DNA of 64,000 nt, taken from NCBI GenBank assembly GCA_037974965.1, contig JBBPFI010000018.1, positions 186,001 through 250,000 of the forward strand, read 5' to 3'. A program made the translations under genes and the position numbers. This document shows, in pieces, positions 4,688-10,342 of the stretch (position 1 is its first letter; each line of letters begins with the position of its first letter). Source of the stretch: Dacryopinax spathularia. Taxonomy: Eukaryota; Basidiomycota; Dacrymycetes; Dacrymycetales; Dacrymycetaceae. The notes under the pieces are model-generated. The model did not search any database. It was not told the origin of the DNA and saw only the letters and a program-made list of their open reading frames with translations.

Positions 4688-6457
4688 ATGAGTTCCACCC
4701 CCTCCGAGAAGGACATACCCGTGCACACGGAAGAAGCCGGTCAGAACAGACTTCACCATAACGAAAATGCGTTGCACTATGAGGTCATTCTCGAGGATGT
4801 TCAGGTTGAGCAACTCGTGGGTGAAGTCCAGGCCGTCGATGAGCAGAGGGCCCGGGAGCTTCAGGAAGAGCTCGCGACCAGCCGACAGGAGGGCTATCAC
4901 CCCATTACCCCAGAGGAGAAGATTGCACATGCTCGGCTGAACAGAAAGTTCGACCTGATGGTCAGTTGAGATCCTTGGTTGGCGTCGCATCCACTGACGG
5001 CAATACAGGTAGTCCCATTCGTGGCCCTCATCTACCTCTTCAATGGCCTGGATCGAAGCAACGTCGGCAACGCGGTCACTAACGGTTTCATCACTGACTT
5101 GAATCTCCCGGCAAACGCTGTGAATACGGCTACCACGTTGTTCTTTGCCACCTACGTCCCCTTCATGCCTGTATGCAACTGGTCCTCCTAAAGGTTGCAG
5201 ATAACTAAATTATTTTTCAGATTTCCGCCTCCATCGGCAAGAGGGTCGGTCAATCGTACTGGCTCGGCGCGATCTCCTTGTGCTGGGGCATCCTTACCTT
5301 GGGCCACGCTTTCGTGAGGACCAATGGAGAGCTGATTGCCATCCGACTCTTGATCGGCGTGGCAGAATCCGGATTCTTCGCCACCGCTACTTCGTTCATT
5401 GCACTGTTCTATCCGCGCCATAACCTTGCGTTCCGGCTCGCGCTGTTCTACTTCGCATTCGCCATTGCCGGAGGATTTGGTGGCCTTATTGCCTACGGAT
5501 GTTTCAGCATCAACGGCAAACTCTGGGGCTGGCAGTACCTGTTCATCATTGAAGGCTGTATCTCTATCACCATCGCCGTCATCACGCCTTTCTGGTTGCC
5601 TCCGAGCCCGGGTCGTGCATGGTTCCTAACCAAGGAGGAGCGTCATTACGCCGAGAAGCGCATGGTTATCGATGCCGCCTCAAATACCGACTCGACCTTC
5701 CGTCTTTCCCGGCGCGACGTCGTCGAAGCGTTCAAGGACTGGAAGATGTGGATCATGTTGCCAAGCAACATCTTCGCGACTCTGGGCCCAGCTGGCTTCT
5801 CCATCTTCTTCCCTGTTGTCGTCAAGGTAAAGAGACCCCTCCATCGCATCAGTGGTAGATGCTGACGTTATACTATAGGGCCTCGGCTACTCTGGCGCGC
5901 TCGCCAACCTTATGACCGTCCCGCCATACGTGATCGGCGCCATCACTGTCCTGGCTATGTCTTGGTCCTCCGATTACTTCAAGGAGCGTACCATCCATAC
6001 CCTCATCGGCGTATCCGTCGTCATCATTGGCCTTGGTCTCGCTATCGGCATTCCCCTGGAGAACGTCCACGGTCGCTACGGAGCGCTCATCGTCCTCCTT
6101 ATGGGTACTTTCGTCTCTACGCCCATCACCACAGCATGGATCGCCGGCAACACCCCGGAACCTGGAAAGCGTACCGTCGTGCTCGCTATCAACGGGTGGG
6201 GTAACCTGGGTGGTATCATCGGCAGTGAAATCTACGTTCCGCAGTACGGCCCCGACTACCACTACCCGCTTAAGGTCTCCCTCATCATGTTGTGCTGCTG
6301 CTGGCTTGGCTACGTGGGCGTCCACATGTACCTTCGCCTTGTCAACCGTCGCCGTGCGAAGATTGTTGCCCAGATGACGCCAGAAGAGCTCGAGCGCGAG
6401 AACAAGGACGACACTCGGTATGCCGACAAGAAGCTGACCTTCGTCTACGGTCTTTGA
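4688..6457 (+). CDS. MFS transporter, anion:cation symporter (allantoate permease/Dal5-like) family
   Basis: Four exons (4688-4960, 5009-5170, 5221-5826, 5879-6457) with 48-52 nt introns give 539 residues. An N-terminal cytosolic stretch of ~95 residues precedes the first membrane segment, which carries the family signature YLFNGLDRSNVGNA. Further hydrophobic helices follow, with the central loop around residues 290-330 and a charged C-terminal tail. Fungal members carry allantoate, nicotinate, pantothenate, biotin or other small organic anions across the plasma membrane. Divergence from the TauD-type dioxygenase suggests this one imports that enzyme's anionic substrate, for example a sulfonate (inference). 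The first intron has a weak GTCAGT donor, but the frame joins cleanly across it. Confidence 0.9.
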
Positions 6458-7094
6458 GCGCACGGCTACCAACGGCAGGCCGACATCGCAGGTATGCGTG
6501 TTGCTGTGCAATTTATTATTTCTTCTTTCCATCATCGGGTACGGCACGCTGGAAGTTGTGCGCTTTCCTTCCTAGTCTGAGTATCGACTGTATTGTCAGT
6601 TTGTTTTTCCCTGAACTGTCGGCTTGTACGTTACATAGCAAATAAATGACGCTCGTTCCAAAAAGGTCATGGGCACCAATCTCGTCAACGCAATACGCCA
6701 GAGTGTCGGCGAGAATGCGCCTGTTAACTGGCCGCGGACGACGATCGTCCAAATGGAGGTGTAGTTGCAACTGTTCGCAATGATCAATGTTTGAAATAAA
6801 TCGGGTCTGACGGAAAGGATTTGCACTAGGCATCCAGGCACACTCTGCAGGTTACACCACACAAAGCACGTGCCACCAGGGTTATAGGTACATCAAACAA
6901 CCTCTCATAGTATGGGAAAGCTTCTTGGGCCATTTGCGCGTACTAGTTATCCTGCCTATCCGGAGGATGCGCACCTCTCTTGGATTGCTTTCCGGGTCGA
7001 TGGTAAAGTAAGGATAGGGGCAAGAGCAACTGACTTGAACGAGGGAGAGCCAGTAGCATAGCTCATGACCATAAACAACGCGAAGGTGGCTTCT
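6458..7094. other. Intergenic region after MFS transporter
   Basis: About 640 bp holding the 3' untranslated region of the MFS gene and unassigned sequence. I see no supported gene. Confidence 0.4.
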
Positions 7095-7480
7095 GCGTGC
7101 TCCTCATCAGGGCGTATTAGTGGTGCTTGTGTTTTTCCCTCTTCGCAATGTACATTAGGGGTTGGAGGACAGCGGGATACGTCACAAGTCTCCGTACCAA
7201 CTCCTCTCCCCTTGGGATCCCATTTGGTGATTTCTTCTGGTTTTGCTCGTCCTTGCGAGCAGCATTGATGAGATGCCCAAGGCGATATAAGGGGAGGAGG
7301 GGGACAGTTGGCTCCAGGCTGCAGTGGCGCGGACGAGCTTGGGCAATGATACACTCCGCTGCAAATAGCGGTCGTCGATATTCTGAGTAGCGCTCTACGG
7401 CATCATCCCGCGCTGGGTCTCCGGCTTCGAGGGCGAGCAGGACGGGGTACATCTATTGCAACTCGAGTTGAACAGCTATT
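7095..7480 (-). pseudogene. Decayed second copy of the 5' end of the left-edge hypothetical gene
   Basis: The minus strand here aligns along most of its length with the first exon of the gene at 1763. The shared pattern on the plus strand includes 'gcttgt.tttctccctcttcg', 'gtctccggcttcgagggcgagcaggac' against its counterpart near 1710-1735, and 'gttgaacagc' at the start. In protein terms, blocks such as DAVxRY near the start and PPTP...PDEEH further on are shared but fall in different frames, so the copy is frameshifted. The initiating ATG of the intact gene corresponds to ATA here (7477-7479). Only the first-exon region is duplicated. It lies about 200 bp upstream of, and divergent to, the short Spt16 gene. 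Confidence 0.65.
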
Positions 7481-7680
7481 AGCGCGGACGGGTATGACCA
7501 TAAACAGGACAGGAATCCTACGCGGCGACGTCGATCGGGGGCAATCGTTTTGCTTCCATCTCCGCTCGCCTCTGATTGGTCCGCTGAGGTCGCAGTGCGA
7601 CGCGTCCGGAAGTTGTGACTTCACAAAAGACCATCACCACCGACGTCGACACGATCTACAGCACTATCAGATCCCACACG

Positions 7681-10342
7681 ATGTCGACCCGTTTCGAGAA
7701 CCTGGTGCGCGCTGGGGAGAGTAGCTCACAATGGAAGGAGCAGTGGAAAGATGAGGAGACTACCAAGGTATGCACAAAGCCATATAGGTGGCAAGGGGAA
7801 AAGGCTAACGTGGTAAAAGCGCGTAATCAACGAGGCTCTGGATCGTGACATCACTCTTTTCAGACGGCTTACGGACCGTATGAAGGATTCGATGGGAGTT
7901 GAATGGGAGAAGAAAAGATTGAGGGAGTTGAAGGCACACAAAGCCGCTTTGAGCGCGCAGGAGGTACGTCAGTCGTGTCGCATCGAGAGCAGAGAAAGTG
8001 ATTCTATGCTCTCGGCAGGGCAACTCGCGGACAGACGTTGGCAAGCAGTCGTCAGATCGCCGTGGTGCCGACAAGGTAATAATTTGTGGTCGTATCGCGT
8101 CTCTGAGCTCACATTTTCGAAGGACGAGGACGAAGACGTCAAACCGACCAAGAAGCAGCTTGCGTCAGCTTCCAATGGCAAAGGACAATCCAGTGGCAAG
8201 TCACGGGGAGCAGCATCCCCAGTGAAGGGCGTTGCCGTCGGCTCCAAAGTCTTGCGAGGCAAAACTCGCGGCGAGGGACGAGACGCCGATGAAAGCGTTG
8301 CTAAGAAGATAGAAGCACACCAGCGCGAACTTTTCGAGCAGCTGCAGGAGAGAGGTCTGGAGAAGTACCAGGCTGGAGGTGATAGGGACGGGAAGGACGG
8401 AAAACAAACTTTCAAGCGGTATGCGAGCTATAAGGGAGAGCTCGCTTTGCCGAAAGAAGTGGAAGATCTGCGGGTGAGTAATAGGCTCTCTCTCCATCCC
8501 GATAGCACACTGACTGCTGTCGCAGATACATGTGGATCGCCGGAACCGCACAGTCCTTCTACCCGTCTATGGCTACGCTGTGCCGTTTCACATTAACGCA
8601 ATCAAGAATGCCAGCAAGTCCGATGAGGGCGACTTTACATATCTCCGTATCAACTTTCAGACGCCGGGGCAAGTTGCCGGAAAGAAGGAGGATACTGTGC
8701 GCCATTCACCTTCTGTCGCCTGTTCTGTGTCTGATACACCGGGATAGCCATTTGAAGACCCTGACAAGACTTTTATCCGCTCCGTAACATATCGGAGCGC
8801 CGATGGAGCACGCTTTGACAACCTATTCCGGCAGATCACCGATCTGAAGAAGGAGGTGTCGAAGCTCGAGGCTGAGAAGCGAGATAAGATGGACGTTGTG
8901 GATCAGGAGTTGATTGAGATAAAGGGTGCGCCTGGCTTTTTGCACGAACGCACACGTTCACTAATGTCGCTTTAGGCAAGCGTGCTCCGAAACTGCCGGA
9001 CGTATTCGCTCGTCCCCAGCCAGAAGGCAAGCGTATGCCTGGGGAGCTCGAAATCCACCAGAACGGTCTGCGGTTCCATACGCCCATCGGCCAGAGGATT
9101 CGTAAGTCCATTGCCTGATGGAAACACCGCATATCTGAAGTTTCTGCATAGAAATACTGTTCAACAACATCCGATATCTTTTCTTCCAGCCGTGTGACCA
9201 CGAGTTGATTGTCCTCATCCACGTGCACCTTAAGAATCCAATCATGATCGGCAAGAGGAAGACAAAGGTGAGACTAGTTGGTTCATTCCCATATATGCGC
9301 CCTGTTTACATGTTTGCAGGACGTGCAATTCTATCGCGAGGCATCTGACGTACAATTCGACGAGACTGGGAATCGCAGACGCAAGTATCGCTACGGTGAT
9401 GAAGACGAAATCGAACTCGAGCAGGAAGAGCGGAAGAGGAAGCAGCAGCTGAACAAGGAGTTCCACCAGTTTGCCGATCGCATTGCGCAGGCTGTACGTC
9501 CGGACTCTTCGGCATTCCGTGCTTTTCCTGATTTCTTTGTAGAGCGATGAACCTTTGGAGGTAGATATTCCGTTCCGCGAGCTCGGTTTCGAGGGTGTGC
9601 CAGCCCGCACGAACGTTCGACTGCAACCCACGACCAATTGCTTGGTGCATCTTTCAGACACACCATTCGTCGTTGTCACGCTGGATGATGTAGAGCTCGT
9701 TCATCTTGAGCGCGTCCAATTCGGTTTGAAACACTTTGACATGGTCATCGTGTTCCAAGACTTCACCAAACCGCCTATGCACATTAACTCCATTCCAATG
9801 TCGGAGCTTGATTCCGTTAAGGAATGGTTGAAGTACGTGCTCAATTGTCCCCGAACCGCTGAATTACTAATGTTCTGTTCCAGCTCCATGGACGTGCCCA
9901 TTTCTGAGGGACCAGTCAATTTGCAATGGGGTCCCATCATGAAGCATATTAACGAAGACCCCTACGAGTTCTTCAACGAAGGTGGATGGGCGTTCTTGCG
10001 CGGAGATGAAGAGGTAATGTGCCCGATGCAAGAATATGGGCTAGTTGCTCACCCATTGAACAGGAGGAATCAGATGAATCTGACTCTGCGTCTGAATTCC
10101 AAATGTCCTCCGAAGCATACCAGGAGGATTCGTCGAGCGATGACGATGAAAGCGAGTACGACGAAGATGCCAGCGCTGATGAAGGCAGTGAAGTGTCTGA
10201 TGAGGATTCGGGAGAGGACTGGGATGAGATGGAGAAGAAGGCGGAGAAGTCCGACCGAAAGAAATTCGGGAACGGGCGAGCAGACGAATCGGATGACGAC
10301 AGGGGCAAGAAGAAGAAGGCACCTGCTAAGGCCCGGCGTTAA
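7681..10342 (+). CDS. spt16: FACT histone chaperone subunit Spt16, lacking the N-terminal aminopeptidase-like domain
   Basis: Twelve exons (7681-7767, 7820-7963, 8019-8075, 8123-8473, 8526-8696, 8748-8925, 8976-9101, 9152-9267, 9320-9493, 9543-9832, 9884-10013, 10064-10342) give 700 residues, against about 1,030 for usual Spt16. Residues ~97-700 match Spt16 throughout: the linker with KVLRGKTR and HQREL, the dimerisation region (~210-330), the tandem-PH middle domain (~345-580, with YLFFQPCD and [17 protein letters not shown]) and an acidic C-terminal tail (~605-700). FACT reorganises nucleosomes during transcription and replication. The first ~96 residues are an unrelated charged, helix-prone segment in place of the pita-bread peptidase-like domain. 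That domain does not occur in the ~1.2 kb upstream. This could be a truncated sole copy or a paralogue of a full-length gene elsewhere. Confidence 0.9.

Follow-up and report, generated by a model that had tools for sequence, protein, structure and literature searches.

The only Spt16 that we found in the genome of Dacryopinax spathularia lacks the N-terminal pseudo-aminopeptidase domain (NTD), and its first two exons are homologous to those of genes that form a dispersed family in that genome. We consider it likely that the NTD was deleted and that the 5′ end of the gene was replaced by exon capture from a member of that family. The gene lies in a 64,000-nucleotide stretch of contig JBBPFI010000018.1 (positions 186,001 to 250,000, forward strand), which we call the window; positions below are those of the window unless a contig (C1, C2 and so on) is named.

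The D. spathularia Spt16 lacks the NTD

The predicted spt16 gene (7681–10342, forward strand; Table 1) consists of 12 exons separated by 11 GT-AG introns of 47–55 nt; when spliced, it reads as one uninterrupted frame of 700 codons followed by a stop. Introns 2 and 3 measure 55 and 47 nt and the remaining nine 49–52 nt. Each of exons 1 to 6 begins in phase 0. Upstream of the start ATG, the last in-frame stop ends at 7587, with no earlier in-frame ATG. Splicing of exons 1–3 to the remainder is part of this gene model. A 111-aa open frame on the reverse strand (7120–7452), between an MFS gene and spt16, gave no Pfam match; it is perhaps what the original prediction called a decayed gene fragment.

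Table 1. Predicted features of the D. spathularia spt16 gene in the window
Feature	Position	Strand	Description
Exon 1 (aa 1-29)	7681..7767	+	Start ATG; first half of the putative captured module
Intron 1, phase 0	7768..7819	+	Position as in family genes L023/L024, L043, L047 and L025 (sequence reading)
Exon 2 (aa 30-77)	7820..7963	+	Core of the putative captured module; predicted helical hairpin
Intron 2, phase 0	7964..8018	+	Probable joint of the donor 5′ end with Spt16
Exon 3 (aa 78-96)	8019..8075	+	Probable relic of the final NTD residues
Exon 4	8123..8473	+	Acidic/basic post-NTD linker up to the D domain; no in-frame Met
Exons 5-6 incl. intron 5	8526..8925	+	Dimerization domain PF08644
Exons 7-11 incl. 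introns	8976..10013	+	Middle domain PF24824, PF08512
Exon 12	10064..10342	+	Acidic C-terminal domain PF21091 and stop

A Pfam scan placed SPT16, PH_SPT16, Rttp106-like_middle and SPT16_C above cut-off, covering the dimerization (D) domain (PF08644, 144 bits, cut-off 25), the middle (M) domain with its tandem PH fold (PF24824, 174.2 bits; PF08512, 87.9 bits) and the acidic C-terminal (C) domain (PF21091, 34.3 bits, cut-off 27.1). The same scan found neither FACT-Spt16_Nlob (PF14826) nor Peptidase_M24 (PF00557) in the window protein; all six families were present in the Spt16 of Calocera viscosa (P0001). The original prediction, that the protein is Spt16 from the post-NTD linker to the acidic tail and is missing the peptidase-like domain, is thereby borne out. 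The D. spathularia protein is an NTD-less variant and not a canonical Spt16, the lobe and M24 region of about 430 residues being absent. The linker in exon 4 is 78% identical to C. viscosa residues 446–570.

After residue 54 the next frame-keeping Met of the spliced sequence is residue 318, within the D domain, and exons 3, 4 and 5 hold no Met in the spliced frame. Translation of an intact dimerization domain therefore cannot start inside exon 4. The exception is an ATG at 8006, usable only when introns 2 and 3 stay in the transcript.

No second Spt16 or surviving NTD was found in the assembly

PF08644 matched once in the single assembly searched (29.2 Mb, 24 contigs), at the window spt16, and the whole-genome check proposed earlier for a second, NTD-bearing copy thus found none. 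With the best candidates scored, Spt16 queries from C. viscosa (P0001, E ≤ 0.001) and Gloeophyllum (P0010, E ≤ 1) each recovered only the window locus, in seven pieces, from residue 446 and residue 463 onwards, respectively, and neither found an NTD piece in the 24 contigs. No Spt16-type NTD exon was found in the window or in the 9.5 kb upstream of it, stretches that contain zero gap letters (N). These results agree with the natural loss that the original prediction had thought conceivable.

A dacrymycete NTD should be visible to such searches, since the C. viscosa NTD is recognizable in Gloeophyllum (raw scores of 100–151 for all seven 60-aa slices and 40 for the eighth, of 20 aa) and D. spathularia is related much more closely to C. 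viscosa. When the window and loci were searched by tblastn with the C. viscosa NTD, allowing E values up to 50, the best match had only E 1.1. A PF14826 search of the genome gave no match, but its control was silent in all 14 genomes, so this search proves nothing.

M24 genes gave 13 matches at eight loci. When a profile of 114 NTDs was run against the open reading frames of the window and 18 loci, including all eight M24 loci, the maximum score was 14.9 bits (E 0.0017), for an M24 gene on C18, some 14 kb upstream, that reads GHGIGLEVH and EPGVY. The motif GHGIG/GHSLG..H occurs at L001, L002 and L003, and EPG.Y at L002, L003, L004 and L050; we take these to be the motifs of active M24 peptidases. 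By the patterns used, L008 and L052 have no catalytic motif and L051 a doubtful one, and with the NTD profile all three stayed below 3 bits or gave no score. A 448-aa NTD query returned 49 hits, all at most 49% identical, so that none looks like a dacrymycete NTD.

The NTD is also absent from an annotated Spt16 of a close relative

Identity to the window Spt16 over 561 residues is 90.4% for P0001, 89.3% for the annotated D. primogenitus Spt16 (P0002), 88.9% for P0003 and 64.0% for Gloeophyllum. With the deposited gene models of C. viscosa and D. primogenitus taken as they stand, P0002 (607 aa, on an 818-kb contig) has four of the families and neither NTD family. In the suggested comparison with relatives, C. 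viscosa keeps the NTD, and the absence of this domain is not confined to the window locus. The window protein shares the linker and the D, M and C domains with the Spt16 of C. viscosa and other Basidiomycota, but lacks the N-terminal lobe and M24 and has a new 77-residue N-terminus. P0002 resembles it in lacking the NTD; unlike the window model with its exons 1–3, the deposited model begins at the linker.

Among the best 120 of 1,708 homologues, PF14826 was present in 114 and PF00557 in 116. Neither was found in P0002 and in the fragments P0003, P0011 and P0069 (contigs of 1.9–2.7 kb), which leaves P0002 as the sole protein on a long contig without both in this set; P0038 and P0060 lacked the lobe only. 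A public protein of 596 aa on a 599-kb contig, P0121, has an Spt16 NTD but stops shortly past the linker, and a search of it for D, M and C domains found none; it is either a cut gene model or a mirror case of the window Spt16.

In a tree of 14 rows, the window protein, P0001, P0002 and P0003 formed a group separate from the ten other fungi, with support 100/100. The tree does not order these four dacrymycete sequences and so fits one loss or two; the simplest reading is that the NTD was lost after the split from other Agaricomycotina. We rejected a special relaxation of the NTD in C. viscosa: its NTD has a mean identity of 43.0% to the 113 other full-length proteins listed, against 65.6% among 40 of these, and the D (64.8 versus 86.1%) and M (72.5 versus 89.5%) identities fall in step with it.

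Exons 1 and 2 form a module common to another gene family

A genome-wide search with residues 1–97 returned, besides the gene itself, C2:2756131-2756268 (E 1.3e-6, 48% identity), C1:1878373-1878513 (E 1.4e-6, 49%) and a weak third match, C3:1599682-1599801 (E 0.047). The C1 and C2 loci begin MAIALSDTERFQALLLKSKDAVAWRSHVQEFGDVAK, followed by a phase-0 intron and then DVINRVVDRDITMFRSLTQPMKDLMGSEW; the window has the same layout, with a phase-0 intron between the two parts. Within exon 2, a 28-residue core is identical to both loci at 19 of 28 positions (68%). A profile built from the C1 and C2 loci also found L025 (29.4 bits), L043 (27.6 bits) and L047 (20.0 bits) on C3, and below threshold (7.9–9.8 bits) two frames of L044 and a further one of L043, which corresponds to L043 exon 1. 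Five aligned module sequences have W18, T47, M54, G55 and W58 in common, and exon 2 of L023 (the C2 locus) and of L043 also ends at a phase-0 donor.

Shuffled versions of the window module reached the real score in 0 of 5,000 trials against each of four family members, counts that exclude the cost of having chosen those members after the profile search. For exon 1 alone, the score was reached in 1 of 20,000 shuffles against L043 and in 1,224 of 20,000 against L023, the latter not significant. Between the window and L023, codon positions 1, 2 and 3 of the exon-2 core match in 20, 22 and 10 of 28 codons, indicating that the module has been held as protein. At the DNA level, blastn of window positions 6401–8600 against L023 gave a best E of 0.67, which points to an old capture or to a different member as donor. 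No relative of residues 1–96 was found at E ≤ 10 among 188 public candidates of 385–1,225 aa; within that length range, the family is seen in this assembly only.

AlphaFold2, run on exon 2 alone with no alignment, returned two helices (mean pLDDT 77.0–91.5 across five models, 91.5 in the best). Exon 2 is thus a predicted helical hairpin, and the hairpin of the putatively captured module of about 77 residues could be a small protein-protein docking element. We also considered exons 1 and 2 as a decayed NTD and rejected this, as shuffles equalled the score against three NTDs in 2,679, 1,475 and 1,855 of 3,000 trials. The description of the N-terminal residues as unrelated in the original prediction holds for exons 1 and 2 relative to the NTD; it does not hold in general, since relatives of these exons occur elsewhere in this genome and exon 3 looks like the end of the NTD.

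Family genes consist of the module, a variable stretch and a CxxC...C...CxxC...C motif. This Cys pattern was found in L023, L024 (the C1 locus), L045, L046 and L047, and a like motif was read in L043 and L025. The window gene agrees with the family in its first two exons, intron phase, exon ends and helical core, but family genes continue to the Cys-rich motif, whereas the window protein, in which the motif was not found, runs into Spt16 instead. It carries the two-exon module and is not a family member. The L023 protein listed 20 family pieces (E ≤ 0.1) and the L043 protein 19 (E ≤ 1), many of them weak and exon-wise, on C1, C2, C3, C10, C11 and C14, with the window found by the L023 query as well. 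The module was located on C1, C2 and C3, and Cys-motif pieces also on C10, C11 and C14. Pfam scans of a family protein and of the module found nothing.

Some members lie in a recent duplication. Positions 621–8148 of L023 (C2:2752000-2760500) are 99.0% identical over 7.5 kb, in opposite orientation, to L024 (C1:1874500-1883000). This block reaches the end of the fetched L024 and holds a family gene and a frame that by eye reads like actin; family pieces farther out (C1:1864674 and C2:2769815) suggest that it is longer. Pairs of equal-scoring family pieces about 13 kb apart at C11:494850-507979 and C14:843124-856216 hint at a second recent duplication.

Exon 3 and the probable seam at intron 2

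Exon 3 aligns with the end of the C. viscosa NTD, GICLTEAGKQSSDLFFDLGAEK (TDVGKQSSD in the window gene, TEAGKQSSD in Calocera); five other proteins displayed at this place differ. Its score of 37 was reached by 14 of 20,000 shuffles (highest, 43) and by 6 of 79,829 other stop-free 19-codon stretches of the window, and tblastn gave E 17, which is weak alone. Exon 3 is probably a relic of the final NTD residues, on evidence that is supportive and not decisive, and intron 2 is the probable joint between the donor 5′ end and Spt16. As exons 1 to 6 all begin in phase 0, a foreign exon pair can join without frame trouble; exons 1 and 2 are in frame with exons 3 and 4, and stop-free.

Origin of the 5′ end

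In the reading that we favour, the NTD of the only Spt16 found would have been deleted, and a family member would have supplied its start codon and first two exons, presumably together with its promoter, upstream of the last NTD exon. Joining in phase 0 at intron 2 would then have replaced the original start codon and the NTD. By analogy with known FACT biology, the product would be an ordinary FACT core subunit, its D domain binding Pob3, its M domain H3-H4 and DNA, and its acidic tail H2A-H2B. The role of the NTD in yeast, notably Tof1 docking at the replication fork, would be dispensed with or performed by another contact. Both partner genes appear to be present, with an SSrecog match (Pob3/SSRP1) on C12 and a TIMELESS match (Tof1) on C10. 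A more speculative extension, which we offer as a tentative possibility, is that FACT was rewired, trading its fork-docking pseudo-aminopeptidase for the hairpin of the Cys-rich family and so coming under a foreign promoter and being recruited through a partner of that family.

The NTD may have been lost with exons 1 and 2 belonging to a small neighbouring gene or truncated family copy, and Spt16 starting at the ATG at 8006, with neither intron 3 nor the remainder of intron 2 removed, which would give a short plain linker. The frame 7817–8593 is open across introns 2 and 3 together, and the D. primogenitus model begins close to the same junction. We nevertheless judge this unlikely, because it disregards two GT-AG introns whose lengths are close to those of the other nine, the exon-3 frame bearing the apparent NTD-end relic, and the in-frame, stop-free join of exons 1 and 2 to exons 3 and 4. 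That the NTD exists and is missing from the assembly, or that a gene model misleads, seems very unlikely to us: one assembly was searched and annotations of relatives were taken as deposited, but the window and the 9.5 kb before it are free of N, none of the 24 contigs gave an NTD piece, and the long-contig D. primogenitus Spt16 lacks the domain too.

Short helix-rich segments can match through composition, and with no homologue of residues 1–96 found among public proteins of 385–1,225 aa, one might suppose a plain deletion whose new N-terminus arose from formerly non-coding DNA and converged on the helical pattern of the family. Convergence is highly improbable given the 68% identity of the core, the shared intron place and phase, the composition-preserving shuffles against each of the four members and the signs of protein-level constraint across codon positions. 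The least probable account in our estimation is gene fission, with the NTD surviving as a separate protein diverged past detection. The M24-like gene nearby on C18 has a weak NTD-profile score, and L008, L051 and L052 show no clear catalytic motif; however, L001–L004 and L050 read like active peptidases, the three motif-poor loci scored negligibly with the NTD profile, and the hits of the 448-aa query do not look like a dacrymycete NTD.

Significance

The Spt16 NTD is described as highly conserved, non-essential in yeast and poorly understood (2020 review, PMC7708052), and as deletable in yeast without severe effects (PMC7708052). Nucleosome reorganization proceeds without the N-terminal part of Spt16, which binds Tof1 (PMC8860610). 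Removal of this part lowers chromatin replication in vitro (PMC8860610), and cells without it are hydroxyurea-sensitive (cited in PMC8860610). Truncation of the human NTD leaves the remaining FACT layout intact (PMC12154125). M24 is given for each Arabidopsis and rice SPT16 listed in PMC4357127, the N domain for four of four Paramecium Spt16s (PMC7402521), and ten other factors are surveyed in PMC13289920. We found no report of a natural NTD-less Spt16 in the part of the literature searched. Laboratory yeast Spt16 with the NTD removed has the same domain content as the window Spt16, but that removal was engineered, whereas the one in D. spathularia is natural, is in the only copy found and comes with an apparently foreign 5′ end.

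A lineage without the NTD in its only Spt16 found, beside a close relative that keeps it, is a natural test of what the NTD is for. It can be asked whether the Spt16-binding part of Tof1 decays in such fungi, and whether they are sensitive to replication stress. For the shuffling of N-terminal exons into a gene that yeast needs for viability, the putatively captured 5′ end is a clean candidate. Were the tentative rewiring true, a histone chaperone essential in yeast would now be under a foreign promoter.
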